Shown here piece after piece: positions 12,618 to 60,588 of a DNA stretch of 64,000 nt. The position numbers and the translations under genes are program-made. The DNA is from Lachnospiraceae bacterium. Its GTDB lineage: Bacteria > Bacillota > Clostridia > Lachnospirales > Lachnospiraceae. Position 1 is the first letter of the stretch, and every line of letters begins with the position of its first letter. The notes under the pieces were generated by a model, which saw only the letters and a list, made by a program, of their open reading frames with translations, searched no databases and had not been told where the DNA came from. The stretch covers positions 620,001 to 684,000 of the forward strand of contig JAKVNF010000002.1 in assembly GCA_022483465.1 (NCBI GenBank), given 5' to 3'.

Positions 12618-13658
12618 TCACTGGGCGTCCTGCTTGGTTTTCGTCCGATCCACCAGGTGCATTCTCGCCTTGAATGCCCCGTTGATGTCCTCATGCTTCC
12701 ACTGGATGCACTGCTCCAGGGCGTGCTGCACCTCGATGGCCTTGGCGTTGCCGTGGGCCTTGACCACAAGACCGGTCAGGCCAAGCAGCGGCGCGCCGCC
12801 GTAGGTCTTGATGTTGAACTTCTGCATGGTGCTCTTGAGGGAATTTTTGATGAGGAGTCCGCCGATCTTGGAGACCGTCGTCCTCATGATGGCACCCTTC
12901 ACCTCTCCGAGGAGCATCTTGGCAGTGCCCTCGTACATCTTCAGGATCGCGTTCCCGGTGAAGGCGTCGCAGACGACCACATCCGCCGCACCAAAGGGGA
13001 TGTCCCTGGACTCGATGTTGCCGATGAAGTTGATGTCGGGAAGGGCTTTGAGGAGCGGATAGGTCTCCTTGGCAAGGGCGTTGCCCTTGTCCTCCTCGGC
13101 CCCGATGTTGTACAGGGCGACCCGCGGGTTCTTCACCCCGATGATCCGCTCCATGTAGATGGAGCCCATCTGGGCGAACTGCACCAGCATCGAGGGCTTG
13201 GGGTCCACGTTGGCGCCGCAGTCGAGCAGCAGGCAGGGCCCCTTCTGGGTGGGCATCACCGGGGCAAAGGGCGGGCGCTCAATGCCCTTGATCCGTCCCA
13301 CGATGATCTGGCCGCCCACCAGGGTCGCACCGGAGCTCCCCGCGGTGAAGAAGGCATCGCAGGTCCCGTCGTGCACGAGCTTCATGCCCTTGACGATCGA
13401 GGAGTCCCGCTTCTTCGTGATGGCGGCCACAGGGGGCTCTGCCATCTCGATGACCTCGGTGGCGTTCAGCACATGGCAGCGGTCCTCCGGGACGCCCTCA
13501 TACTTTGCGAGCTCCGCCCGGATGACCTCCTCCTTCCCCACCAGGGTCAGGTCCAGGTCCGCATTGGCCTTCAGGGCATCCACCGCGCCCCGGAGAATCT
13601 CCCCGGGGGCGTTGTCCCCGCCCATGGCATCGACTGCTACTCTCACCAGTTCCGACAT
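12618..13658 (-). CDS. plsX: Phosphate acyltransferase PlsX
   Basis: 346 aa, with N-terminal RVAVDAMGGDNAPGEILRG and the internal GNIESRDIPFGAADVVVCDAFTGNAILK, both diagnostic. Converts acyl-ACP to acyl-phosphate for PlsY, the first step of phospholipid synthesis. ATG at 13658 with AGAGGTG upstream. It is normally next to rpmF; here two IS1634-type elements separate them, but the plsX promoter is intact. Confidence 0.97.
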   Translation of the reverse strand: MSELVRVAVDAMGGDNAPGEILRGAVDALKANADLDLTLVGKEEVIRAELAKYEGVPEDRCHVLNATEVIEMAEPPVAAITKKRDSSIVKGMKLVHDGTCDAFFTAGSSGATLVGGQIIVGRIKGIERPPFAPVMPTQKGPCLLLDCGANVDPKPSMLVQFAQMGSIYMERIIGVKNPRVALYNIGAEEDKGNALAKETYPLLKALPDINFIGNIESRDIPFGAADVVVCDAFTGNAILKMYEGTAKMLLGEVKGAIMRTTVSKIGGLLIKNSLKSTMQKFNIKTYGGAPLLGLTGLVVKAHGNAKAIEVQHALEQCIQWKHEDINGAFKARMHLVDRTKTKQDAQ

Positions 13659-13702: not shown

Positions 13703-13731
13703 ACTATACTAGACGGCATCTGCATTTGCAA
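13703..13731 (-). promoter_or_regulatory. plsX promoter (functional copy, inside the target duplication)
   Basis: Minus strand TTGCAA (13726-13731), 17 bp, TATAGT (13703-13708); 45 nt upstream of plsX. The -10 box forms the very edge of the IS target duplication. Identical copies are at 16074-16102 and 18379-18407. Confidence 0.75.
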
Positions 13732-13840
13732 GGTTCGCAAAAGCCCGCGAAATCCCGCAAAATCAACAAAAAACTCGGGTCTTAAACAGTTGGGCACATT
13801 TTTGGGAGGCTTCGGCCTCTCTTTTTTGTTGTGGTTGAGC
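13703..13840. repeat. 138-bp target-site duplication of IS1634-like copy A, left copy
   Basis: Identical to 16074-16211. It consists of the 73/74-bp host sequence carrying the plsX promoter followed by the first 65 bp of IS copy B, including that element's left terminal repeat and terminator hairpin. The composition shows that copy A inserted into copy B's left end after copy B had landed. One base at the border (C) is ambiguous. Confidence 0.88.
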
Positions 13841-13868
13841 CGGGTTTTAAACAGTTGGGTTCATTTTT

Positions 13869-13892
13869 GAGAGGCTTTGACCTCTCTTTTTT
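13869..13892 (+). terminator. Inward-facing terminator in the left end of IS copy A
   Basis: GAGAGG-CTTTGA-CCTCTC followed by TTTTTT, between the left terminal repeat and the transposase promoter. It would stop transcription entering from outside. In copies B and C the stem is GGGAGGC-TTCG-GCCTCTC; copy A changes one G-U pair to A-U. Confidence 0.65.
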
Positions 13893-13949
13893 GTTGTAGT
13901 TGAGCCATTCTTCACTGTCAAATCTAGTTATTTTATGTGTTGTATGTGT

Positions 13950-13978
13950 TGCATGTTCAAGAGTCATGTGATATACTT
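13950..13978 (+). promoter_or_regulatory. Transposase promoter, copy A, 5 nt from the ATG
   Basis: TTGCAT, 17 bp, TATACT (13973-13978). Only TGAATC-type sequence of 5 nt lies before the ATG at 13984, and no Shine-Dalgarno is present, so transcription should start at or very near the start codon. Confidence 0.65.
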
Positions 13979-13983
13979 GAATC

Positions 13984-15954
13984 ATGAAACTTTATTTTGA
14001 CAAAAGGCTGAGTGATCCAACTTACTATGTCCAAAAAGGCTACAGAAATGGCCATAAAGTGACATGTAAAAATGTGAAGATTATAGGAAAGCATTCTGAG
14101 TTACTAAAAATCACAGATGATCCATTATCCTATGCTAAAGAGCAAGTTCGCCTTATGAATGAGGAGGAGAAGGCCGGTCTGCAAAGCATAGATCTTCATC
14201 TTGATTTCAATGAATTGATTCAGAATAACTCAGATAGGTCTGTCGCGCCTCTATTCACAAGGAATATTGGATATCTTTATCTTCAGCACATATATCGTCA
14301 ACTAAAAATTGGTGATTTCTTCAAATGTTCGTGTGAAGGCAAGAAAATCACATTTGATATAGACAGAGTTAATAGATTTCTTGTGTATGACCGCATATTA
14401 AGGCCGGGCTCCAAACTTCATTCCTGCCAAAGTAAGGAGTGGTATTATGAGAACCCGGATTTCGAGTATCAGCACATTATGCGAACACTCGATATCCTCG
14501 AGGACAATTATACCGAGTATATAAGCTGGCTATACAAATACAGTAACGATATTGTTAAGAGAGATACCTCCCGATGCTACTACGATTGTACGAATTATTA
14601 CTGTGAAGTTGAAACAAGTGACGATAATTACATTGATGAAGTGACCGGAGAAGAAATAAAAGGCCTCCGTGAATACGGAAAGTCGAAAGAAAATCGGCCT
14701 AACCCAATTGTAGAAATGGGATTGTTTATGGATAGTCAAGGCATTCCTATGTCTATGTGCATTCATCCCGGAAATACAAATGAGCAAGTTACCGCTATTC
14801 CATTAGAAAAAGAACTGATCAAAATGCTTAAAGAGGCTGATCATGATAATGACGGATCTTTCATATATGTTGCGGATGGAGGCCTTGGTTCTTCGTGGAT
14901 TAGACAGTTCAACTCAATGGGCGGAAGGTGCTTTATAGTCACGCAGTCAATCAAGAAAATGTCTGAAGTTATGCAAAATTCTGTGTTCAATGACTTTGAT
15001 TATTGGATTCCAGTCAGTGAAAAAGAGCACAGTAAAGATAAGGATGGAAGGACTATTATCAAAAGCGAGCCAATATCTATAGATTTTCTAAAGAAATTTA
15101 ATAAAAATGACGCAAAATATCTTAAATATTACAATGCTATGGCATATAAGGTTATTGATGCTGACAGTGTTATTGACCTTGGAATATCAGAGGCAAAGAT
15201 ATGTAAGAACGGAAAAACCAAAACCGCAAAAGTTAGGGCCACTCTTAAGCAGAAGATCATAATCAGATTCTCGCGGAAATACATGGAGTACCAAAGGTCC
15301 GTCCGAAACCGCCAGATAGAGCGTGCCAAGAGCCTTATCAGGAAGTGTGATCCAGATGAACTGAAGAAAAGTCAGAATGACGCAAAGCGATTCATAAAGA
15401 AAACAACAGCTGCAAAAGATGGTGGAGAAGTGCAGGTGTCATACTCTCTCGATACAGATCGCATCGCAGAAGAAGAAAAATATGATGGATTTTATGCGAT
15501 TGCAACAAATCTGCAGATAGATATGGTGAGTATTCCCGATGATCCATTAAAACTAAAGCCGGATCTCACAGACGTGCTTGATATTGTGTCTATAAGCGAA
15601 ACACGCAATAAAATTGAGGAATGCTTCAGAATCATGAAAACAAATTTTGAGGCACGCCCGATTTATCACAGAAAACACGAACACATAATTTCACACTTCA
15701 TGATATGTTACACTGCTCTTCTCATTTATAGGCTTCTTGAGATCCAGGTTAATCAAAGCCGCTATCATTGCACGACACAAGATATTGTAGAGACATTAAA
15801 TCATATGATAGTCGGAAACGTAGAAGATCAGTATTATCTTTCATTATACGGAGGATGTACCACTTTGGCAGCGCTGGAGGAAGTGTTCAATTGTGGGCTG
15901 AATCATAAACGTTATTATCCGAAAACACTAAATAAACTGGCAAGAAGTTTTTAA
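13984..15954 (+). CDS. IS1634-family (IS4 superfamily) transposase, copy A
   Basis: 656 aa DDE transposase. Catalytic candidates: D201 (CYYDCTNYYCE), D298 (YVADGGLGS) and E545 within R541-x3-E-x6-K551 (RNKIEECFRIMK), the YREK-type signature of the IS4 superfamily. Residues 310-500 form the insertion domain before the E. About nine tenths identical by eye to the copies at 16290 and 58403. It appears intact. The start is fixed by homology of all three copies (MKLYFDKRL) although no ribosome-binding site precedes it. Confidence 0.93.
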   Translation: MKLYFDKRLSDPTYYVQKGYRNGHKVTCKNVKIIGKHSELLKITDDPLSYAKEQVRLMNEEEKAGLQSIDLHLDFNELIQNNSDRSVAPLFTRNIGYLYLQHIYRQLKIGDFFKCSCEGKKITFDIDRVNRFLVYDRILRPGSKLHSCQSKEWYYENPDFEYQHIMRTLDILEDNYTEYISWLYKYSNDIVKRDTSRCYYDCTNYYCEVETSDDNYIDEVTGEEIKGLREYGKSKENRPNPIVEMGLFMDSQGIPMSMCIHPGNTNEQVTAIPLEKELIKMLKEADHDNDGSFIYVADGGLGSSWIRQFNSMGGRCFIVTQSIKKMSEVMQNSVFNDFDYWIPVSEKEHSKDKDGRTIIKSEPISIDFLKKFNKNDAKYLKYYNAMAYKVIDADSVIDLGISEAKICKNGKTKTAKVRATLKQKIIIRFSRKYMEYQRSVRNRQIERAKSLIRKCDPDELKKSQNDAKRFIKKTTAAKDGGEVQVSYSLDTDRIAEEEKYDGFYAIATNLQIDMVSIPDDPLKLKPDLTDVLDIVSISETRNKIEECFRIMKTNFEARPIYHRKHEHIISHFMICYTALLIYRLLEIQVNQSRYHCTTQDIVETLNHMIVGNVEDQYYLSLYGGCTTLAALEEVFNCGLNHKRYYPKTLNKLARSF

Positions 15955-16007
15955 ATTGCGGAAATTCAAGGTCCCCCCACATACAACATTTTGATAAATT
16001 GATTAAA

Positions 16008-16047
16008 GGGCAGAAAACGTTGATTTTCCAACGTTTTCTGCCCTTTT
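16008..16047 (+). terminator. Terminator after transposase A
   Basis: Perfect 15-bp stem GGGCAGAAAACGTTG / CAACGTTTTCTGCCC with a 6-nt loop, followed by TTTT. Present in all three copies. Confidence 0.8.
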
Positions 16048-16073
16048 GGCATTCTTGAAGTGTTTAAAACCGG

Positions 16074-16102
16074 ACTATACTAGACGGCATCTGCATTTGC
16101 AA
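16074..16102 (-). promoter_or_regulatory. Duplicate plsX promoter firing antisense into IS copy A
   Basis: Same TTGCAA-17-TATAGT as at 13703. Here its -10 box abuts the right end of IS copy A, so transcription would run leftward, antisense to the transposase. Confidence 0.6.
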
Positions 16103-16211
16103 GGTTCGCAAAAGCCCGCGAAATCCCGCAAAATCAACAAAAAACTCGGGTCTTAAACAGTTGGGCACATTTTTGGGAGGCTTCGGCCTCTCTTTTTTGT
16201 TGTGGTTGAGC
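16074..16211. repeat. 138-bp target-site duplication of IS copy A, right copy
   Basis: Identical to 13703-13840. Bases 16074-16147 are also the left copy of the 74-bp duplication made by IS copy B; the rest is the left end of copy B itself. Confidence 0.88.
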
Positions 16212-16254
16212 CATTCTTGGCTGTCAAATTTCTGTGATTATTATGTTGTATGTG

Positions 16255-16283
16255 TTGTATGTCTAGGGTGCATGTGTTATACT
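16255..16283 (+). promoter_or_regulatory. Transposase promoter, copy B, 6 nt from the ATG
   Basis: TTGTAT (16255-16260), 17 bp, TATACT (16278-16283), then six bases and ATG at 16290. No Shine-Dalgarno sequence. Predicts a leaderless transcript. Confidence 0.7.
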
Positions 16284-16289
16284 TCGTTT

Positions 16290-18260
16290 ATGAAACTATA
16301 CTTTGACAAGAGACTGAAAGATCCTACCTACTATATTCAAAAAGGTTACCGGAATGGTTCCAAAGTAACCTGTAAAAATGTAAAGATTATTGGAAAGCAT
16401 TCAGAATTACTAAAAATCACAGATGATCCATTATCCTATGCAAAAGAGCAAGTCCGTCTAATGAACGAAAAGGAGAAGAGCGGTCTGCAAAGCATAGACC
16501 TTCATCTTGATTTAAATGAATTGATTCAAAACAACACAGAAAAATCGATTGCACCTTTATACACAAGAAATGTCGGCTATTTTTATCTTCAGCATATATA
16601 TCGCCAGCTAAGCATCAATGAATTCTTCAAAAATGCTTGCAACGGCAATAAGATCACATTTGATATCGACCGTGTTAACAGATTCCTTGTTTATGACCGT
16701 ATATTGAGGCCTGGATCCAAGCTCTATACATGGCAAAATAAGGACTGGTATTACGAGGAGCCAGATTTCGAGTATCAGCATATTATGCGGACCATGGATA
16801 TCCTTGAGGACAATTACGCCGAATACATCAGTTGGCTTTTTAAGTACAGTAACAACATCGTTAAGAGAGATACATCTCGTTGCTATTACGACTGTACAAA
16901 TTATTACTGTGAGACTGAGACAAATGATGATAATTATGTTGATGAAGTAACCGGAGAGGAAATAAAAGGACTGCGCGAGTACGGAAAGTCGAAAGAAAAC
17001 CGTCCCAACCCGATTGTAGAAATGGGATTATTTATGGATAATCAAGGCATACCAATGTCAATGTGCATTCATCCAGGAAATACAAATGAACAGGTTACCG
17101 CTATTCCTTTGGAAAAAGAACTGATCAAAATGTTCAGAGATGCTGATCATGATAATAACGGTTCTTTCATATATGTTGCAGATGGTGGACTTGGGTCGAC
17201 ATGGATTAGACAGTTCAATTCCATGGGCGGAAGGTGCTTTATTGTCACTCAGTCAATTAAGAAAATGTCAGAAGTTATGCAGAATTCTGTATTCAATGAT
17301 TGCGATTATTGGATTCCAACATCCGATAACGATGGTAAGAAGGATAAAGATGGAAGGACAATTGTTCAAAGTGATCCCATATCAATAGAATTTCTAAAAA
17401 CATTTGATAAGAATGATAAAGATAATCTTAGATATTATAATTCGATGGCGTATAAAGTAATTGACGCTGATAACCTTATTGATCTTGGACTCACAGAAAC
17501 AAAGATATGCAAGAACGGAAAAACAAAGAGTGTAAAAGTTAAGGGCACTCTTAAGCAGAAAATAATAATCAGATTCTCACGAAAATATATGGAATACCAA
17601 AGGTATATCCGGAATCGTCAGGTGGAACGTGCCAAGAATCTCATCAGAAAATGTGATCCGGATGAACTGAAGAAAAGCCAGAATGACGCAAAGCGATTCA
17701 TAAAGAAAACAACTACCGCAAAAGATGGTGGGGAAGTGCAGGTGTCATACTCTATTGATACAGACCGCATCGCGGAGGAAGAAAAGTATGATGGGTTTTA
17801 TGCTCTCGCCACAAATTTGCAAATAGATATGATAAGTGCACCGGATAATCCGCTAAAATCGAAGCCTGATCTTACAGATGTACTTGAAATAGTCTCTATC
17901 AGCGAAACACGCAACAAAATTGAAGAATGCTTTAGGATCATGAAAACAAATTTTGAAGCTCGACCGATTTATCATAGAAAGCACGAGCACATAATTTCAC
18001 ATTTTATGATATGTTACACCGCGCTTCTCATCTATAGGCTTCTTGAGATCAAAGTTAATCAAAGCCGCTATCATTGCACGACGCAGGATATTATAGAGAC
18101 ATTAAACCATATGATCGTCGGAAATGTAGAGGATCAATATTACATTTCATTATACGGAGGCTGTACCACGCTGACAGCGTTGGAGGAAACGTTCAATGGT
18201 GGGCTAAATCACAAGCGATATTATCCGAAAACATTAAATAAACTGTCGAAAAGTTTTTAA
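16290..18260 (+). CDS. IS1634-family transposase, copy B
   Basis: 656 aa, with the same catalytic residues as copy A (D201 in YYDCTNYYCE, D298 in YVADGGLGS, E545 in RNKIEECFRIMK). An open frame extends upstream to 16161 but would run through the terminator hairpin and promoter; alignment of the three copies sets the start at MKLYFDKRLKDPTYY. Very close to copy C. Confidence 0.93.
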   Translation: MKLYFDKRLKDPTYYIQKGYRNGSKVTCKNVKIIGKHSELLKITDDPLSYAKEQVRLMNEKEKSGLQSIDLHLDLNELIQNNTEKSIAPLYTRNVGYFYLQHIYRQLSINEFFKNACNGNKITFDIDRVNRFLVYDRILRPGSKLYTWQNKDWYYEEPDFEYQHIMRTMDILEDNYAEYISWLFKYSNNIVKRDTSRCYYDCTNYYCETETNDDNYVDEVTGEEIKGLREYGKSKENRPNPIVEMGLFMDNQGIPMSMCIHPGNTNEQVTAIPLEKELIKMFRDADHDNNGSFIYVADGGLGSTWIRQFNSMGGRCFIVTQSIKKMSEVMQNSVFNDCDYWIPTSDNDGKKDKDGRTIVQSDPISIEFLKTFDKNDKDNLRYYNSMAYKVIDADNLIDLGLTETKICKNGKTKSVKVKGTLKQKIIIRFSRKYMEYQRYIRNRQVERAKNLIRKCDPDELKKSQNDAKRFIKKTTTAKDGGEVQVSYSIDTDRIAEEEKYDGFYALATNLQIDMISAPDNPLKSKPDLTDVLEIVSISETRNKIEECFRIMKTNFEARPIYHRKHEHIISHFMICYTALLIYRLLEIKVNQSRYHCTTQDIIETLNHMIVGNVEDQYYISLYGGCTTLTALEETFNGGLNHKRYYPKTLNKLSKSF

Positions 18261-18311
18261 ATTGTGAAAATTCAAAAGCCCTCCACATACAACATTTTGA
18301 AGGACAGATAA

Positions 18312-18353
18312 GGAGGCAGAAAGCGTTGATTTTCCAACGTTTTCTGCCTCCTT
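18312..18353 (+). terminator. Terminator-like hairpin after transposase B
   Basis: Stem GGAGGCAGAAAGCGTTG / CAACGTTTTCTGCCTCC (one G-U pair), 6-nt loop; the T tract is reduced to TT compared with copy A. Confidence 0.65.
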
Positions 18354-18378
18354 GGCATTTTAAAGTGTTTAAAACCGG

Positions 18379-18452
18379 ACTATACTAGACGGCATCTGCA
18401 TTTGCAAGGTTCGCAAAAGCCCGCGAAATCCCGCAAAATCAACAAAAAACTC
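18379..18452. repeat. 74-bp target-site duplication of IS copy B, right copy (native rpmF side)
   Basis: Matches 16074-16147 and 13703-13776. Three copies of the same 74 bp, each carrying the plsX promoter (here 18379-18407), mark the two successive insertions. Only this copy is continuous with the rest of the rpmF terminator. Confidence 0.9.
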
Positions 18453-18506: not shown

Positions 18507-18689
18507 TCAGGCCTCGACCTTGATGATCTCCTTCTTGTTATAAGAACCGCAGTTCTTGCAGACCCTGTGAGGCATCATCAATGCACCACACTTGCTGCAC
18601 TTAACGAGTGTCGGAGCGCTCATTTTCCAATTAGCTCTTCTCTTATCTCTATGACTTCTGGAATTTTTATTCTTAGGGCAAATAGACAT
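18507..18689 (-). CDS. rpmF: 50S ribosomal protein L32
   Basis: 60 aa. MSICPKNKNSRSHRDKRRANWK followed by a four-cysteine zinc ribbon (KCSKCG and VCKNCG), the C+ form of L32. AAGGAGG lies 8 nt before the ATG. In relatives it follows a DUF177 (YceD) gene and precedes plsX; here no DUF177 gene is found between ackA and rpmF, and transposons sit on both sides. Own promoter and terminator are intact. Confidence 0.97.
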   Translation of the reverse strand: MSICPKNKNSRSHRDKRRANWKMSAPTLVKCSKCGALMMPHRVCKNCGSYNKKEIIKVEA

Positions 18690-18770
18690 CAGTTACACCT
18701 CCTTACTCTGTATGGTACATCATGTTCGCTGACGTCAAGGGTCGTATCTTTCAGCTCACAGACAACGATC

Positions 18771-18825: not shown

Positions 18826-19057
18826 CCTGAAGTGTAATTCAAAACTCCACTGAAGTGGATATTAATCTTTCACTTGGTTCTACATTGATATAAGTCTTAC
18901 ACTATCTCCACTAAAAGCTGCCCTACTTTTCCCTGACTGTACTATACTGTTTCCCGTTGCGAATTAAAAAAAGAGACAGAAGGCCAACATCCCTGCAAGA
19001 AAGTACCTTCCGTCTCACCACTATAGGCAGGCGAGTATTGCTACCCGTCTGCCTGTA
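18826..19057 (+). other. Left-end region of the IS30-like element: palindrome and two leader hairpins
   Basis: Contains the terminal CCTGAAGTG, the palindrome TCCACT-GA-AGTGGA, a hairpin GAGACAGAAGG (18973-18983) with CCTTCCGTCTC (19006-19016), and a second one GGCAGGCGAGTA (19026-19037) with TACCCGTCTGCC (ending 19053), only 4 nt before the first ORF. The second hairpin would hide the start region of the mRNA. Repeated at 21006-21237. Confidence 0.6.
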
Positions 19058-19480
19058 ATGATAGCCATGAAGAGTACATCAGACAAGAGTCAATTGAACT
19101 TTATCCAGAGAGCTACGGAAGAAGCACAAGAGCGTTACGATGCCGAGGTCAGTCAGTTCCAGCGCAGCTACAATGAGAAGCACCCCTTGCAGCACATCTG
19201 GCGTCACATCATCGCCAAACGAAGGATCACCGTCCTGTACGAGTCAGAGGATGTCTCCGTTGTGATCCAGGTGGTCCGTTTTGTCTACGCGCACACTTCC
19301 CAAACCTTCACCTTCTACGGGACGCTCCTTCTGCGCCGCACGCATTACGCCTTCCACCTCCTCAGGAAGTGGATCGGCAGCCGGCCTGCCAACCTCTCCC
19401 GGGACGTGGAAAAGCGCTGGGCCTCCTTCGTCAGCGTCCCCGAAAAGGTCCGTGTTTCAGCCGATTTCCTGGGAGCATAG
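19058..19480 (+). CDS. IS30-like element accessory ORF1 (140 aa), copy 1
   Basis: Unrecognised protein of 140 aa (or 137 from the second Met), basic, no membrane segment. Central part has HIWRHIIAKRRITVLYESEDVSVVIQVVRFVYAHT. No clear ribosome-binding site; the start lies just behind a strong hairpin. It precedes the transposase by about 75 nt and is carried unchanged in both copies, so it is part of the element. Could be a regulator or a DNA-binding partner of the transposase; that is a guess from position only. Confidence 0.6.
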   Translation: MIAMKSTSDKSQLNFIQRATEEAQERYDAEVSQFQRSYNEKHPLQHIWRHIIAKRRITVLYESEDVSVVIQVVRFVYAHTSQTFTFYGTLLLRRTHYAFHLLRKWIGSRPANLSRDVEKRWASFVSVPEKVRVSADFLGA

Positions 19481-19556
19481 ATGAACGCTACCTCCTCCCC
19501 CTCCGGACGATTCATACTGGCCCCATAAGGGCAAAAATGCCCAAGGAGGCGTGATC

Positions 19557-20867
19557 ATGGCAGGTTTGAACAAGAATAAGGCACTCTCACTGGACGAGCG
19601 GAGGTTCATTGAGCAGGGGATCGGCAGCGGATCCTCCAAGGCAGCGATTGCTTCCGCTCTGGGCAGGGACAAGTCTACCATCGGCAAAGAGATCAAGCTG
19701 CACAGAACCCTGAAGTACAAGTGCCGGCTGAGGCGAGAGTGTGGGGCCTATAAGAGCTGCAGCTGGGGGCGTGAATGCCCGGATGACTGTCCGGACTTTG
19801 TCCAGTTCACCTGCGGCAGGAGGGATCGCTCCCCGGGTGCCTGCAATGGCTGTGAGAATTACGCAAGGTGCCGTTTTTCAAAGTACTACTACTCCGCTGC
19901 AAAGGCAGATATGGAATACCGGGAGCTCCTTGTTAATTCCAGGACCGGGGCCAACCTCACGGAGGAGGAAGCAAAACGGATGGCTGCCATCATTAAACCT
20001 GCACTTCAGAAAGGTCACTCTCCCTATCGGATTCTGCAGGATCATCCGGAGCTGAACATCTCAGAGAAGACCCTCTACAACTACATCGACGAAAAGGTCT
20101 TCAGTGTCGTCGGCATTGCCAACATCGACCTTCGCCGCAAGGTCTCCAGAAAGATTCCCAGGAAGCTTGCGCACAACTACCGGAAGCGGCAGGAACGATC
20201 ATATCTGCGTGGCCGCAGTTATGCGGACTACAAAGCGTACATAGAGAACTTCCCAAACGCTTCCGTTGTTGAAATGGACACCGTCTACAACGACGTGTCA
20301 CACGGGCCTTTCATGCAGACCTTCAAGTTTCTCAACTATTACCTGATGGTCGCTGTTTATCACGATACCAAGACCGCCCAGGACATGCTGGACGGTGTCA
20401 GCCTGCTGAATCAGGTCCTTGGTGATGCTCTCTTCAAAGAGCTCTTTGAAGTACTGCTGACAGACCGCGGCGATGAATTCACCCTCGCCAGGGCAATGGA
20501 AACCGGCGCAGACGGCAGTCAGCGGTGTCACGTTTTTTACTGCGATCCCATGCAGTCAGGACAAAAAGGTTCGCTGGAAGTCAATCACGAAGAGCTTCGC
20601 TACATCTGCCCGCACAGGGACAACTTAAGAGACCTCGGCCTTGTGAACCAGACCGCATTGAACTTTGCGATCTCCAATATCGCAAGCTCCGCTCATCCGG
20701 CGATAGGCGGGAAGTCTCCCATCGAGTACACCCGATTCATGAAACCGGAGCTATGGGAAAAGCTTCAGACTTTCGGAATCCAGGAGATTCCCAGAGATGA
20801 CATCGATCTCACGAAGCACTGCCTGGAAAGGTTTAAAAAGAATCCAGGAGAAGGGAGTCAGGCATGA
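19557..20867 (+). CDS. IS30-family transposase, copy 1
   Basis: 436 aa from the ATG at 19557, 7 nt after AAGGAGG. N-terminal HTH (LSLDERRFIEQGIGSGSSKAAIASALGRDKSTIGKEIK), a cysteine-rich insert at residues 62-105 with about eight Cys (probable zinc site), a second HTH, then the rve-type DDE core: D241 (VVEMDTVYN), D303 (LLTDRGDEF) and E341 (QKGSLEVNHEELRY, the IS30 signature region). Looks active. Identical to the copy at 21737. Confidence 0.9.
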   Translation: MAGLNKNKALSLDERRFIEQGIGSGSSKAAIASALGRDKSTIGKEIKLHRTLKYKCRLRRECGAYKSCSWGRECPDDCPDFVQFTCGRRDRSPGACNGCENYARCRFSKYYYSAAKADMEYRELLVNSRTGANLTEEEAKRMAAIIKPALQKGHSPYRILQDHPELNISEKTLYNYIDEKVFSVVGIANIDLRRKVSRKIPRKLAHNYRKRQERSYLRGRSYADYKAYIENFPNASVVEMDTVYNDVSHGPFMQTFKFLNYYLMVAVYHDTKTAQDMLDGVSLLNQVLGDALFKELFEVLLTDRGDEFTLARAMETGADGSQRCHVFYCDPMQSGQKGSLEVNHEELRYICPHRDNLRDLGLVNQTALNFAISNIASSAHPAIGGKSPIEYTRFMKPELWEKLQTFGIQEIPRDDIDLTKHCLERFKKNPGEGSQA

Positions 20868-21010
20868 ACGAAAAAGCCTTTTTTAATCTTGACAGCTCCG
20901 AACTGGAAGCAGATCTAGAGGACCGAATCCGGTTTCTGAACACGATTCTCAATCGGCATGGCGTCTGGTTCAATCTCCTGCACGACAAGGAAGGATATCG
21001 AAAGCCCTGA
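20864..21010 (+). pseudogene. Truncated accessory ORF3 of the IS30-like element (copy 1)
   Basis: Begins with the same MNEKAFFNLDSSELEAD as the intact gene at 23044 and overlaps the transposase stop (ATGA). After residue 46 it runs into the left end of copy 2, which supplies a proline codon and the stop TGA; 48 codons remain of 127. Confidence 0.8.
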
Positions 21011-21237
21011 AGTGTAATTCAAAACTCCACTGAAGTGGATATTAATCTTTCACTTGGTTCTACATTGATATAAGTCTTACACTATCTCCACTAAAAGCTG
21101 CCCTACTTTTCCCTGACTGTACTATACTGTTTCCCGTTGCGAATTAAAAAAAGAGACAGAAGGCCAACATCCCTGCAAGAAAGTACCTTCCGTCTCACCA
21201 CTATAGGCAGGCGAGTATTGCTACCCGTCTGCCTGTA

Positions 21238-21660
21238 ATGATAGCCATGAAGAGTACATCAGACAAGAGTCAATTGAACTTTATCCAGAGAGCTACGGAA
21301 GAAGCACAAGAGCGTTACGATGCCGAGGTCAGTCAGTTCCAGCGCAGCTACAATGAGAAGCACCCCTTGCAGCACATCTGGCGTCACATCATCGCCAAAC
21401 GAAGGATCACCGTCCTGTACGAGTCAGAGGATGTCTCCGTTGTGATCCAGGTGGTCCGTTTTGTCTACGCGCACACTTCCCAAACCTTCACCTTCTACGG
21501 GACGCTCCTTCTGCGCCGCACGCATTACGCCTTCCACCTCCTCAGGAAGTGGATCGGCAGCCGGCCTGCCAACCTCTCCCGGGACGTGGAAAAGCGCTGG
21601 GCCTCCTTCGTCAGCGTCCCCGAAAAGGTCCGTGTTTCAGCCGATTTCCTGGGAGCATAG
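21238..21660 (+). CDS. IS30-like element accessory ORF1 (140 aa), copy 2
   Basis: Identical to the ORF at 19058 and in the same setting: a hairpin 5 nt upstream, no obvious Shine-Dalgarno, transposase about 75 nt downstream. Family not recognised. Confidence 0.6.
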   Translation: MIAMKSTSDKSQLNFIQRATEEAQERYDAEVSQFQRSYNEKHPLQHIWRHIIAKRRITVLYESEDVSVVIQVVRFVYAHTSQTFTFYGTLLLRRTHYAFHLLRKWIGSRPANLSRDVEKRWASFVSVPEKVRVSADFLGA

Positions 21661-21736
21661 ATGAACGCTACCTCCTCCCCCTCCGGACGATTCATACTGG
21701 CCCCATAAGGGCAAAAATGCCCAAGGAGGCGTGATC

Positions 21737-23047
21737 ATGGCAGGTTTGAACAAGAATAAGGCACTCTCACTGGACGAGCGGAGGTTCATTGAGCAGGGGA
21801 TCGGCAGCGGATCCTCCAAGGCAGCGATTGCTTCCGCTCTGGGCAGGGACAAGTCTACCATCGGCAAAGAGATCAAGCTGCACAGAACCCTGAAGTACAA
21901 GTGCCGGCTGAGGCGAGAGTGTGGGGCCTATAAGAGCTGCAGCTGGGGGCGTGAATGCCCGGATGACTGTCCGGACTTTGTCCAGTTCACCTGCGGCAGG
22001 AGGGATCGCTCCCCGGGTGCCTGCAATGGCTGTGAGAATTACGCAAGGTGCCGTTTTTCAAAGTACTACTACTCCGCTGCAAAGGCAGATATGGAATACC
22101 GGGAGCTCCTTGTTAATTCCAGGACCGGGGCCAACCTCACGGAGGAGGAAGCAAAACGGATGGCTGCCATCATTAAACCTGCACTTCAGAAAGGTCACTC
22201 TCCCTATCGGATTCTGCAGGATCATCCGGAGCTGAACATCTCAGAGAAGACCCTCTACAACTACATCGACGAAAAGGTCTTCAGTGTCGTCGGCATTGCC
22301 AACATCGACCTTCGCCGCAAGGTCTCCAGAAAGATTCCCAGGAAGCTTGCGCACAACTACCGGAAGCGGCAGGAACGATCATATCTGCGTGGCCGCAGTT
22401 ATGCGGACTACAAAGCGTACATAGAGAACTTCCCAAACGCTTCCGTTGTTGAAATGGACACCGTCTACAACGACGTGTCACACGGGCCTTTCATGCAGAC
22501 CTTCAAGTTTCTCAACTATTACCTGATGGTCGCTGTTTATCACGATACCAAGACCGCCCAGGACATGCTGGACGGTGTCAGCCTGCTGAATCAGGTCCTT
22601 GGTGATGCTCTCTTCAAAGAGCTCTTTGAAGTACTGCTGACAGACCGCGGCGATGAATTCACCCTCGCCAGGGCAATGGAAACCGGCGCAGACGGCAGTC
22701 AGCGGTGTCACGTTTTTTACTGCGATCCCATGCAGTCAGGACAAAAAGGTTCGCTGGAAGTCAATCACGAAGAGCTTCGCTACATCTGCCCGCACAGGGA
22801 CAACTTAAGAGACCTCGGCCTTGTGAACCAGACCGCATTGAACTTTGCGATCTCCAATATCGCAAGCTCCGCTCATCCGGCGATAGGCGGGAAGTCTCCC
22901 ATCGAGTACACCCGATTCATGAAACCGGAGCTATGGGAAAAGCTTCAGACTTTCGGAATCCAGGAGATTCCCAGAGATGACATCGATCTCACGAAGCACT
23001 GCCTGGAAAGGTTTAAAAAGAATCCAGGAGAAGGGAGTCAGGCATGA
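21737..23047 (+). CDS. IS30-family transposase, copy 2
   Basis: Identical to the protein at 19557 (D241, D303, E341 catalytic candidates; Cys-rich insert). In this copy the whole downstream part of the element is present, so it is the likely source of mobility. The stop overlaps the ATG of ORF3 by 4 nt, pointing to coupled translation. Confidence 0.9.
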   Translation: MAGLNKNKALSLDERRFIEQGIGSGSSKAAIASALGRDKSTIGKEIKLHRTLKYKCRLRRECGAYKSCSWGRECPDDCPDFVQFTCGRRDRSPGACNGCENYARCRFSKYYYSAAKADMEYRELLVNSRTGANLTEEEAKRMAAIIKPALQKGHSPYRILQDHPELNISEKTLYNYIDEKVFSVVGIANIDLRRKVSRKIPRKLAHNYRKRQERSYLRGRSYADYKAYIENFPNASVVEMDTVYNDVSHGPFMQTFKFLNYYLMVAVYHDTKTAQDMLDGVSLLNQVLGDALFKELFEVLLTDRGDEFTLARAMETGADGSQRCHVFYCDPMQSGQKGSLEVNHEELRYICPHRDNLRDLGLVNQTALNFAISNIASSAHPAIGGKSPIEYTRFMKPELWEKLQTFGIQEIPRDDIDLTKHCLERFKKNPGEGSQA

Positions 23048-23427
23048 ACGAAAAAGCCTTTTTTAATCTTGACAGCTCCGAACTGGAAGCAGATCTAGAG
23101 GACCGAATCCGGTTTCTGAACACGATTCTCAATCGGCATGGCGTCTGGTTCAATCTCCTGCACGACAAGGAAGGATATCGAAAGCTCCTGGTCATGGTGA
23201 ATCCCGGAACGCTGAAGCGGCATGCAGGCAAGCGCAGGCAGGATATCTACCTGCCGGATACCTCCTCCAGGATCGGAAAACGCATCTGTACCGTCGATGA
23301 TGTCCGGAAGATGGAGAGCACCGGTATGACCACTTCCGTCATCACGGATCTGATCCGGATCAGCCGATCCACCTATTTCAGAAGGAAGAAAGCAGCCGCT
23401 GACAAGCAGGGGTGGGAAGCCTTCTGA
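23044..23427 (+). CDS. IS30-like element accessory ORF3 (127 aa), HTH-like C-terminus
   Basis: 127 aa, ATG overlapping the transposase stop. The N-terminal half is acidic (DLEDRIRFLNTILNRHGVWFNLLHDKEGYRKLLVMVNPG); the C-terminal half has VDDVRKMESTGMTTSVITDLIRISRSTYFRRKKAA, which reads like a helix-turn-helix of the resolvase/invertase type. Family not recognised. The 4-nt overlap suggests a fixed stoichiometry with the transposase, perhaps as target or end-binding subunit (inference). Truncated in copy 1. Confidence 0.7.
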   Translation: MNEKAFFNLDSSELEADLEDRIRFLNTILNRHGVWFNLLHDKEGYRKLLVMVNPGTLKRHAGKRRQDIYLPDTSSRIGKRICTVDDVRKMESTGMTTSVITDLIRISRSTYFRRKKAAADKQGWEAF

Positions 23428-57652: not shown

Positions 57653-58102
57653 CTAGATCACGAAGTGTTCGTCCAAAAGGTTGGCCGCGATGGCGCTGAT
57701 CTCCTCGCGGGAATCCTCGTTCATGTAGTCGCCGTAGGCCTCCTCGCTCCAGATCTCCGCCTTCGTGCCGCAGCCGATCCAGACCACGTCCTTGTCGATG
57801 CCCACCTTCTCCCTGGCCTTCTGGGGAAGCAGAATTCGTCCCTGCCGGTCCACCTCCACATCGAAGGTGCCGGAGGTGAAGTAGCGCACCAGCTTTCTCG
57901 TATCCGGGCGATTTTGGGGCAGGGCGCTGAGTTTTTCGTAGAAGGACTCCCACCCCTCATCGGAGTAGACGGTGAGGCAGTTATCCAGGGAGACGCCGAT
58001 GCGGAAGGTGCTCCCCAGAAGATCCCGGAAGCGTGCGGGCACAATAAGGCGCCCTTTGGCATCAAGCGAGTGATGATATTCTCCCGTAAACCCTCTGTTC
58101 AC
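57653..58102 (-). CDS. mraZ: Transcriptional regulator MraZ
   Basis: 149 aa from a GTG at 58102 (GAGAGG 12 nt upstream). Two SpoVT/AbrB-type halves: FTGEYHHSLDAKGRLIVPARFRDLLG and TFDVEVDRQGRILLPQKAREKVGI, each with the DxxGR element. Binds TGGGN repeats in front of its own operon. No ATG is available near the family's usual N-terminus, so GTG is chosen. An IS1634 copy lies 150 bp upstream but leaves promoter and boxes intact. Confidence 0.94.
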   Translation of the reverse strand: MNRGFTGEYHHSLDAKGRLIVPARFRDLLGSTFRIGVSLDNCLTVYSDEGWESFYEKLSALPQNRPDTRKLVRYFTSGTFDVEVDRQGRILLPQKAREKVGIDKDVVWIGCGTKAEIWSEEAYGDYMNEDSREEISAIAANLLDEHFVI

Positions 58103-58134: not shown

Positions 58135-58180
58135 TCCCACTCTCTCCCACTTTTTGGGCAGAATTGGGATTTCCTCCCAC
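58135..58180 (-). promoter_or_regulatory. MraZ-box repeats upstream of mraZ
   Basis: Minus strand GTGGGA at 58175-58180, 58145-58150 and 58135-58140: intervals of 30 and 10 bp, all in helical phase. MraZ is known to bind direct TGGGN repeats with 5-nt gaps. Confidence 0.7.
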
Positions 58181-58259
58181 CTTGTGGCATAAATCATAGC
58201 GTATGATTTGTTTGAAATCAATACCCCCGAAAAGGGCGAAATTGCCTGTCTTTTCAAGT
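58163..58259. repeat. 97-bp target-site duplication of IS1634-like copy C, left copy
   Basis: From ATTGGGATTTCC to TTTTCAAGT; repeated exactly at 60492-60588. Contains the mraZ promoter and one GTGGGA box. Confidence 0.9.
58193..58221 (-). promoter_or_regulatory. mraZ (dcw operon) promoter, functional copy
   Basis: Minus strand TTGATT (58216-58221), 17 bp, TATGAT (58193-58198). It lies wholly inside the 97-bp duplication; the second copy is at 60522-60550. Confidence 0.75.
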
Positions 58260-58367
58260 CGGGTCTTAAACAGTTGGGCACATTTTTGGGAGGCTTCGGC
58301 CTCTCTTTTTTGTTGTGGTTGAGCCATTCTTGGCTGTCAAATTTCTGCGATTATTATGTTGTATGTG

Positions 58368-58396
58368 TTGTATGTCTAGGGCGCATGTGTTATACT
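58368..58396 (+). promoter_or_regulatory. Transposase promoter, copy C, 6 nt from the ATG
   Basis: TTGTAT (58368-58373), 17 bp, TATACT (58391-58396), six bases, ATG at 58403; as in copy B. Confidence 0.7.
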
Positions 58397-58402
58397 TCGT
58401 TT

Positions 58403-60373
58403 ATGAAACTATACTTTGACAAGAGACTGAAAGATCCTACCTACTATATTCAAAAAGGTTACCGGAATGGTTCTAAAGTAACCTGTAAAAATGTAAAGAT
58501 TATTGGAAAGCATTCAGAATTACTAAAAATCACAGATGATCCATTATCCTATGCAAAAGAGCAAGTCCGTCTAATGAATGAAAAGGAGAAGAGCGGTCTG
58601 CAAAGCATAGACCTTCATCTTGATTTCAATGAATTGATTCAAAACAACGCAGAAAAATCGATTGCACCTTTATACACGAGAAATGTCGGCTATTTTTATC
58701 TTCAGCATATATATCGCCAGCTAAGCATCAATGAATTCTTCAAAAATGCTTGCAGCGGCAATAAGATCACATTTGATATCGACCGTGTTAACAGATTCCT
58801 TGTTTATGACCGTATATTAAGGCCTGGATCCAAGCTCCATACATGGCAAAATAAGGACTGGTATTACGAGGAGCCAGATTTCGAGTATCAGCATATTATG
58901 CGGACCATGGATATCCTTGAGGACAATTACGCCGAATACATCAGTTGGCTTTTTAAGTACAGTAACAACATCGTTAAGAGAGATACATCTCGTTGCTATT
59001 ACGACTGTACAAATTATTACTGCGAGACTGAAACAAATGATGATAATTATGTTGATGAAGTGACCGGAGAGGAAATAAAAGGACTGCGCGAGTACGGAAA
59101 GTCGAAAGAAAACCGTCCCAACCCGATTGTAGAAATGGGATTATTTATGGATAATCAAGGCATACCAATGTCAATGTGCATTCATCCAGGAAATACAAAT
59201 GAACAGGTTACCGCTATTCCTTTGGAAAAAGAACTGATCAAAATGTTCAGAGATGCTGATCATGATAATAACGGTTCTTTCATATATGTTGCAGATGGTG
59301 GACTTGGGTCGACATGGATTAGACAGTTCAATTCCATGGGCGGAAGGTGCTTTATTGTCACTCAGTCAATTAAGAAAATGTCAGAAGTTATGCAGAATTC
59401 TGTATTCAATGATTGCGATTATTGGATTCCAACATCCGATAACGATGGTAAGAAGGATAAAGATGGAAGGACAATTGTTCAAAGTGATCCCATATCAATA
59501 GAATTTCTAAAAACATTTGATAAGAATGATAAAGATAATCTTAGATATTATAATTCGATGGCGTATAAAGTAATTGACGCTGATAATCTTATTGATCTTG
59601 GGCTCACAGAAACAAAGATATGCAAGAACAGAAAAGCAAGGAGTGTAAAAGTTAAAGGTACTCTTAAGCAGAAAATAATAATCAGATTCTCACGAAAATA
59701 TATGGAATACCAAAGGTATATCCGGAATCGTCAGGTAGAACGTGCCAAGAATCTCATCAGAAAATGTGATCCGGATGAACTGAAGAAAAGCCAGAATGAC
59801 GCAAAGCGATTCATAAAGAAAACAACTACCGCAAAAGATGGTGGGGAAGTGCAGGTGTCATACTCTATTGATACAGACCGCATCGCGGAGGAAGAAAAGT
59901 ATGATGGGTTTTATGCTCTCGCCACAAATTTGCAAATAGATATGATAAGTGCACCGGATAATCCGCTAAAATCGAAGCCTGATCTTACAGATGTACTTGA
60001 AATAGTCTCTATCAGCGAAACACGCAACAAAATTGAAGAATGCTTTAGGATCATGAAAACAAATTTTGAAGCTCGACCGATTTATCATAGAAAGCACGAG
60101 CATATAATTTCACATTTTATGATATGTTACACCGCGCTTCTCATCTATAGGCTTCTTGAGATCAAAGTTAATCAAAGCCGCTATCATTGCACGACGCAGG
60201 ATATTATAGAGACATTAAACCATATGATCGTCGGAAATGTAGAGGATCAATATTACATTTCATTATACGGAGGCTGTACCACGCTGACAGCGTTGGAGGA
60301 AACGTTCAATGGTGGGCTAAATCACAAGCGATATTATCCGAAAACATTAAATAAACTGTCGAGAAGTTTTTAA
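58403..60373 (+). CDS. IS1634-family transposase, copy C
   Basis: 656 aa, differing from copy B at only a few residues (for example KNRKARSVKV instead of KNGKTKSVKV). Catalytic candidates D201, D298 and E545 retained. The open frame upstream to 58208 crosses the IS end and is not real coding sequence. Confidence 0.93.
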   Translation: MKLYFDKRLKDPTYYIQKGYRNGSKVTCKNVKIIGKHSELLKITDDPLSYAKEQVRLMNEKEKSGLQSIDLHLDFNELIQNNAEKSIAPLYTRNVGYFYLQHIYRQLSINEFFKNACSGNKITFDIDRVNRFLVYDRILRPGSKLHTWQNKDWYYEEPDFEYQHIMRTMDILEDNYAEYISWLFKYSNNIVKRDTSRCYYDCTNYYCETETNDDNYVDEVTGEEIKGLREYGKSKENRPNPIVEMGLFMDNQGIPMSMCIHPGNTNEQVTAIPLEKELIKMFRDADHDNNGSFIYVADGGLGSTWIRQFNSMGGRCFIVTQSIKKMSEVMQNSVFNDCDYWIPTSDNDGKKDKDGRTIVQSDPISIEFLKTFDKNDKDNLRYYNSMAYKVIDADNLIDLGLTETKICKNRKARSVKVKGTLKQKIIIRFSRKYMEYQRYIRNRQVERAKNLIRKCDPDELKKSQNDAKRFIKKTTTAKDGGEVQVSYSIDTDRIAEEEKYDGFYALATNLQIDMISAPDNPLKSKPDLTDVLEIVSISETRNKIEECFRIMKTNFEARPIYHRKHEHIISHFMICYTALLIYRLLEIKVNQSRYHCTTQDIIETLNHMIVGNVEDQYYISLYGGCTTLTALEETFNGGLNHKRYYPKTLNKLSRSF

Positions 60374-60491
60374 ATTGTGAAAATTCAAAAGCCCTCCACA
60401 TACAACATTTTGAAGGACAGATAAGGAGGCAGAAAGCGTTGATTTTCCAACGTTTTCTGCCTCCTTGGCATTTTAAAGTGTTTAAAACCGG

Positions 60492-60588
60492 ATTGGGATT
60501 TCCTCCCACCTTGTGGCATAAATCATAGCGTATGATTTGTTTGAAATCAATACCCCCGAAAAGGGCGAAATTGCCTGTCTTTTCAAGT
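60492..60588. repeat. 97-bp target-site duplication of copy C, right copy, with a second mraZ promoter
   Basis: Identical to 58163-58259. Holds TTGATT-17-TATGAT on the minus strand (60522-60550), which now reads into the right end of the IS, antisense to its transposase. Confidence 0.9.

Follow-up and report, generated by a model that had tools for sequence, protein, structure and literature searches.

How an insertion sequence can settle between an important gene and its old upstream neighbour, leaving the gene with an intact promoter, is the question raised by the region upstream of plsX in the window analysed here, a stretch of 64,000 nucleotides from a Lachnospiraceae genome. The window holds three IS1634-family copies, one (E3) upstream of mraZ and two (E1 and E2) in tandem between plsX and rpmF. 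An earlier note had observed that the target duplications at both sites carry the promoter of the adjoining gene, and it left two explanations side by side: either insertions of any other kind are lost, or promoter DNA is a preferred target of the transposase. The three elements are as follows.

13841..16073, plus strand: E1, IS1634-family element; transposase at 13984-15954 (NF033559, E 3e-91); ends CGGGTTTTAAACAG and GTGTTTAAAACCGG
16147..18378, plus strand: E2, IS1634-family element; transposase at 16290-18260; 99% identity with the mraZ copy (E3)
58260..60491, plus strand: E3, IS1634-family element at mraZ; transposase at 58403-60373 (NF033559, E 2.8e-95)

E1 and E2 are distinct elements whose DNA is 83% identical across 2.2 kb. 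The two transposases scanned score 306.9 and 320.2 bits against the IS1634 transposase model NF033559 (cut-off 100 bits). The match of the window transposases to Pfam DDE_Tnp_1 is barely over its cut-off, and a transposase-profile search of solved structures returned a single match, too weak to be of use (E 0.057). The left ends in the window read CGGGT[CT]TT and so conform to the IS1634-family terminal pattern C-----YT (PMC2266710, in the portion available). The table in that source gives a family length of 1500-2000 bp and an AT-rich target duplication of 5-6 bp (PMC2266710). The window copies, at 2232-2233 bp, fall outside the former, which as a size range is not decisive; their relatives are mostly 1956-2112 bp long. 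Their duplications also depart from the table (35-807 bp, n=74), as do those of the founding members IS1634 and IS1549 in the same available text (PMC2266710).

The plsX site contains the following features.

12618..13658, minus strand: plsX, the gene with the duplicated promoter (Pfam FA_synthesis, E 9.6e-102)
13703..13708, minus strand: plsX -10 box TATAGT (13703-13708 reads ACTATA), at the very edge of the duplication
13726..13731, minus strand: plsX -35 box TTGCAA, with a 17-nt spacer at 13709-13725; conserved in G034
13703..13775, no strand: plsX-proximal copy of the 73-bp target duplication (exact match; single copy at the G034 empty site)
13776..13840, plus strand: first 65 bp of E2, copied within the 138-bp target duplication of E1 (exact repeat)
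16074..16146, no strand: second copy of the 73-bp block (exact match)
18379..18451, no strand: third copy of the 73-bp block, adjoining the 3' side of rpmF (exact match)
18510..18692, minus strand: rpmF, former upstream neighbour of plsX (Pfam Ribosomal_L32p, E 7.5e-23)

The span 13703-13731 is exactly the plsX promoter, from -10 edge to -35 edge. The duplication was described as starting at the -10 box and including the -35 box, and it does so, with TTGCAA-17-TATAGT inside 13703-13775. That description is to be amended in one respect, in that two IS copies are present, with blocks of 73 and 138 bp. E2 is flanked by the 73-bp block and E1 by the 138-bp block (13703-13840 = 16074-16211), in which the 73 bp are followed by E2's initial 65 bp. 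Because the E1 duplication includes these 65 bp, E2 arrived first and E1 second; to judge from this nesting, E1 entered the plsX-proximal copy of the duplication made by E2. The right ends of both elements are joined at the same base, 13703, so two insertions picked one base. In a genome of the same genus (G034) the plsX-rpmF interval lacks an IS and the block is present once. There ACTATACTAGAC and CATTTGCAAG match the window exactly and the bases between them differ. TTGCAA and TATAGT are thus kept around a diverged mid-spacer, which provides outside support for the plsX promoter.

The mraZ site has a simpler layout.

57653..58102, minus strand: mraZ (Pfam MraZ, E 8.4e-33)
58163..58259, no strand: mraZ-proximal copy of the 97-bp target duplication (exact match to 60492-60588)
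58193..58198, minus strand: proposed mraZ promoter -10 box TATGAT, 30 bp inside the block (from sequence)
58216..58221, minus strand: proposed mraZ promoter -35 box TTGATT, spacer 17 (from sequence)
60492..60588, no strand: distal copy of the 97-bp target duplication (exact match)

Both boxes of TTGATT-17-TATGAT lie inside 58163-58259, in agreement with the earlier reading. The -10 box is within the block and not at its edge, from which 30 bases separate it.

The joints were compared in a sample made up of 66 loci from genome contigs and further copies from other genomes. Right junctions were set by exact duplications or by matches to known right ends with at most 4 mismatches. Exact duplications numbered 71, one of which was dropped from the list; this 25-bp "duplication", at L119, proved to be an internal hairpin. 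Distinct junctions, defined by the unique first 22 bases of the right flank, number 153. Main clades are those in which the right flank begins ATTATA-like, with 137 junctions in 81 genomes. The 16 junctions left out (8 from the L184 clade, 3 from L294, 2 each from L291 and L297, and 1 from L077) were excluded after it was seen that the rule fails at this register. The 74 measured main-clade duplications come from 38 genomes; the 73-bp duplication of E2 is outside these 74, its right flank being identical with that of E1.

In the main clades a sigma-A-type -10 hexamer directly abuts the right end of the element. Positions 1-6 of the right flank read ATTATA (A121 T103 T97 A78 T111 A112 of 137), which is TATAAT on the opposite strand, and it is the hexamer's downstream side that meets the element. 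The weakest position of this motif coincides with the weakest position of sigma-A -10 boxes. At least five of the six bases match the -10 box in 87/137 main-clade junctions, compared with 1.1% when positions are drawn at random from these loci; the remaining 50/137 fall below that level, and the count with the set-aside clades included is 87/153. When one junction is taken per genome, 60% reach the same level, about as in the full set. TGTCAA, the reverse complement of TTGACA, is matched at 4/6 or better in 41/137 junctions at offset 23, i.e., with a 17-bp spacer; at the neighbouring offsets the counts are 11 and 9, and any other of the 34 offsets gives at most 20. An extended -10 CA occurs in 35/137 main-clade junctions. 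The left junction (110 flanks) has no peak for a -10 or a -35 box and shows a mild purine preference on the outward-read strand.

These docked sites, where promoters are predicted from sequence, differ from other ATTATA-like DNA. A -35 box (at least 4/6) lies at 16-18 bp in 48 of the 87 docked junctions versus 3,364/22,839 (14.7%) of ATTATA-like controls (p 3e-18). In the 73 insertions with enough context, the left-hand gene faces away from the junction in 53, over which the median distance from junction to gene start is 54 bp. The facing gene starts within 250 bp in 52/73 (71%), against 9.9% for random positions and 15.2% for ATTATA control sites. Edges inside a called open frame amount to 14/73 versus 81.5% of random positions, and five of these 14 are doubtful, the caller being unreliable there (L116, L117, L118 and L120 in the window's own genome, and the close relative L018). 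A lack of promoter enrichment among other duplications had been named as evidence against the idea. The comparison was run, and the right edge of the duplications is enriched for both the -10 and the -35 box. The suggestion that the transposase favours promoter DNA is supported, with near single-base precision over 81 genomes.

Main-clade duplications (n=74) range from 35 to 807 bp, with a median of 116 and quartiles of 82 and 162. They run upstream from the docked right edge, so the promoter is held by geometry; since -35 to -10 spans 29 bp, every docked duplication holds the core promoter. The 74 include none below 35 bp, although 16 would be predicted in that range by an exponential distribution with the same mean. 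Helical periodicity of duplication length (9.5-12 bp) was absent, the best p being about 0.15. Transcription starts outside the duplicated blocks had also been listed as an argument against the idea. This criterion was badly framed: an edge at the end of the -10 box forces the start a few bases outside, yet promoter, start and leader all stay with the gene-proximal copy.

For the 93 copies flanked on each side by 1 kb or more of sequence, an own duplication was found in 69 and none in 24. Seven or eight of the 24 are accounted for by composites, reciprocal exchange or an N gap, and the rest are not. The composites are L262 (two copies), L263 and L267 (two copies), with outer duplications of 100, 86 and 48 bp; L025 pairs with L035 (98 bp), and L265 adjoins an N gap. 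L262 and L263 (G705) have the form IS-289/290 bp-IS with a single outer duplication, as if the pair had moved as a unit, and L267 (G628) is a larger composite, the one with the 48-bp duplication. For L064, an empty site is available in the relative G414, which holds the 127-bp block once. The empty sites in G034 (plsX) and G414 (L064) indicate that the ancestors were single-copy.

Promoter-targeted transposition by the IS1634-type transposase is the best explanation of these patterns and very probably the correct one. The right end would be joined between positions -7 and -6 of a sigma-A promoter, just past the -10 hexamer, with the promoter directed away from the element. The left end would be joined at a variable upstream point, 35-807 bp away in the measured cases, and repair of the long stagger would duplicate everything between the joints, i.e., the core promoter plus upstream DNA. 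The gene-side copy would be the native promoter, with its own start and leader still attached, and the second copy would point into the right end, where a terminator-like hairpin lies 20-76 nt inside. From normal DDE chemistry, the joined strand would be the template strand. The host gene would be expected to stay expressed after insertion, and copying the whole promoter probably lets the element settle beside important genes without silencing them.

If insertion were random, with long duplications, and the survivors were simply those leaving the promoter intact, the containment of the core promoter would have a ready reason, as a duplication wholly containing it would spare the gene, and main-clade duplications would never fall below 35 bp because short ones had been lost. 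That floor is equally expected if a bound polymerase blocks the second joint, and it does not discriminate between the two. The position of the edge does. With selection only, it would fall anywhere downstream of the promoter; in most cases it coincides with a single base of the -10 box, the far edge shows no motif, and two elements sit at the same plsX base. Survival of lucky insertions, one of the two options in the earlier note, cannot fix a junction to a single base of that box, so the element targets promoters, and selection as the sole cause is extremely improbable. Very unlikely, too, is a plain preference for ATTATA-like AT-rich DNA with no tie to promoters. The hexamer is indeed the strongest part of the motif, and IS1634-family targets are described as AT-rich 5-6 bp tracts in the available part of the family review (PMC2266710). 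However, the gene direction found at 71% of insertions compares with 15% of ATTATA sites, and a correctly spaced -35 and gene direction remain strongly enriched when the controls are limited to intergenic ATTATA sites with a gene start ahead of them at no more than 250 bp (-35 box in 30/48 versus 20.9% of 1,729, p 1e-9).

Promoters could be recognised in more than one way. The transposase itself might read -35/-10 DNA without RNA polymerase, a possibility that falls somewhat short of probable. TTGACA is fixed in the terminal repeats (positions 8-13 in 63/80 distinct right ends of the docking clades), which makes a TTGACA-reading transposase domain plausible, but the TTGACA of the target lies at another distance from the joint (23 versus 7) and in the opposite polarity relative to it, and docking is also seen in clades whose termini carry other words, e.g., the L030 clade with 15/19 at 4/6 or better. 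Recognition of promoter-bound RNA polymerase, with its melted -10 region, and not of bare sequence has about an even chance. It is favoured because the full -35/17/-10 grammar is present, the extended -10 CA occurs, the cut lies in the melted region and no duplication is under 35 bp. In its most specific form, this view couples IS1634-type transposition to the open complex of RNA polymerase: the right end would attack the template strand at -7/-6, where it is melted, and duplex DNA upstream of the holoenzyme would be the only substrate for the left end. This coupling is put forward tentatively, as a reasonable but not yet probable mechanism; it would explain why one edge is fixed and the other varies, why the duplications are long and why none is below 35 bp. 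If it is true, this would be a bacterial transposon with bound polymerase as its landing platform, and with an insulating hairpin that evolved facing the promoter that the element copies.

The hairpins in the window are located as follows.

16005..16047, no strand: hairpin 26-68 nt inside the E1 right end (terminator-like, inward; from the fold)
18310..18353, no strand: hairpin just inside the E2 right end (same sequence in other copies)
60423..60466, no strand: hairpin just inside the E3 right end

For the region 15-80 nt inward from the right end, and with a threshold of z < -2 versus shuffles, the fold was stronger than shuffles in 78/80 distinct docking-clade elements (median z -5.3), with a median hairpin extent of 20-76 nt. 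Among the controls, 4/80 internal windows and 23/62 left ends were below the threshold. In the non-docking clades L077, L291, L294 and L297, 0/7 elements have such a right-end fold; the sole L184-clade element tested gave z -2.7. The distal duplicated promoter copy points into the right end of the element. The hairpin would be expected to stop this promoter and may thereby shield the transposase gene from it. It may also be a plain terminator that simply ends the transposase gene, a reading that stands because T-richness is equal in both directions. TTGACA is also present within 82/115 left ends of the docking clades. As a -35 box of a transposase promoter the terminal TTGACA was rejected, there being no -10 peak at 17 bp (82 left and 101 right ends).

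The window's own 4.3-Mb assembly has 8 copies at 7 distinct sites, with duplications of 41, 96, 807, 50, 138 (and 73) and 97 bp; at L114 a target duplication was searched for and none was detected. In all seven (7/7) the left open frame, read by eye, is directed away from the joint, and no more than about 250 bp separate the joint from its start. Automated gene calling is poor in this GC-rich genome, and the five sites beyond plsX and mraZ were re-read by eye; these re-readings are excluded from the 53/73 gene-orientation count. From their first residues the genes there look secD-, degV-, LacI- and lipoprotein-like. A convincing -10 box at the edge is present at only 3/7 sites (plsX, L116 and L117), mraZ not included. 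The L116 edge is ATCTTA with TGTCAA 18 bp on; the L117 edge is ATTATA, yet its promoter seems reversed, with TTTACA-18-TATAAT towards the gene inside the 807-bp duplication. With 3/7 sites fitting, the window's own element obeys the rule less tightly than its relatives. The 807-bp duplication of L117 (C3:654048-656279) includes a complete small gene, by eye like a NiaR-type regulator, so this insertion duplicated a gene. L118 (C1:526064-528611) has a 308-bp insert near its right end, with the 8-bp repeat TTCGCAAT at the insert borders.

Docking is not universal in the family. In a transposase tree of 112 sequences, made by a quick method and with long-branch warnings, the seven non-docking sequences L290, L291, L294 and L297-L300 form one clade with support 100. 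Docking at 4/6 or better is seen at 74/112 tips, 23 are not docked and 15 are shifted by one base; docking is spread over the rest of the tree, with scattered exceptions. The subclades L290, L291, L297 and L298 may use another landing signal. The clades around L277-L287 and L184 look one base shifted. In the L184 clade (L169, L184-L187, L272, L273) the right flanks read T and then ATTAT, with the hexamer shifted one base, and a -35 at 17 bp was found in 0/8. The left junctions of L290, L291, L297 and L298 end in T-rich runs (CTTTT, TTTTT, GTTTTT, TTTCT). L272 (G731) and L300 (G802), both outside the main set, have duplications of 1532 and 1129 bp; a second copy of the same element as L272 lies within the retrieved stretch.

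IS1634 of Mycoplasma mycoides and IS1549 of Mycobacterium smegmatis share with the window elements the transposase family NF033559 and also make long variable duplications, 8-514 bp, described in 1998-1999 (PMC2266710). The 2008 family review, in its available text, notes that a mechanistic model for them was still lacking and, in contrast to what is seen here, does not mention promoter docking for these prototypes (PMC2266710). ISGka5 and other members with 5-6 bp AT-rich duplications have the same family name (PMC2266710, PMC8024623, both as partly available); their duplications (6 bp in ISGka5, PMC8024623) differ from the 35-807 bp found here. The M. mycoides IS1634 copies are covered in PMC3053259 and PMC1798306, the accessible parts of which contain no promoter targeting. 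No report of promoter or -10 targeting by insertion sequences, the IS1634 family included, was found in the open-access literature, as far as its accessible text extends. The long IS1634 duplications were known already, and promoter docking is apparently unreported.

Among other mobile elements, Ty3 and Ty1 of yeast and Tf1 of fission yeast have their integration guided to promoters or start sites by the transcription machinery, and Ty3 integrates within a few bases of Pol III starts. An insertion position fixed relative to promoter elements, a trait of transposons guided in this way, is also found here. The yeast elements differ in being eukaryotic LTR retrotransposons with an integrase and short duplications, and no homology is claimed. 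Tn7 (attTn7) recognises a feature of a conserved gene and in this way lands safely next to it; it differs in having one site per genome, dedicated target-selection proteins and a short duplication. To our knowledge, target choice through the transcription machinery has so far been known in yeast retroelements, and bacterial transposition would join this logic should polymerase be the guide. For the long duplications, promoter docking accounts for one of the two edges and makes the other testable. It is also a concrete route by which an IS could land beside essential genes in compact genomes. As a by-product, probable sigma-A promoters of uncultured bacteria can be located to a single base from where these elements have joined their right ends.

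A further element lies after rpmF, at 18826-23185 or so, in two head-to-tail copies with a spacing of 2180 bp that are 100% identical over the 300 bp compared. It has one long frame with an HTH_38 domain of the kind found in IS30-type transposases.
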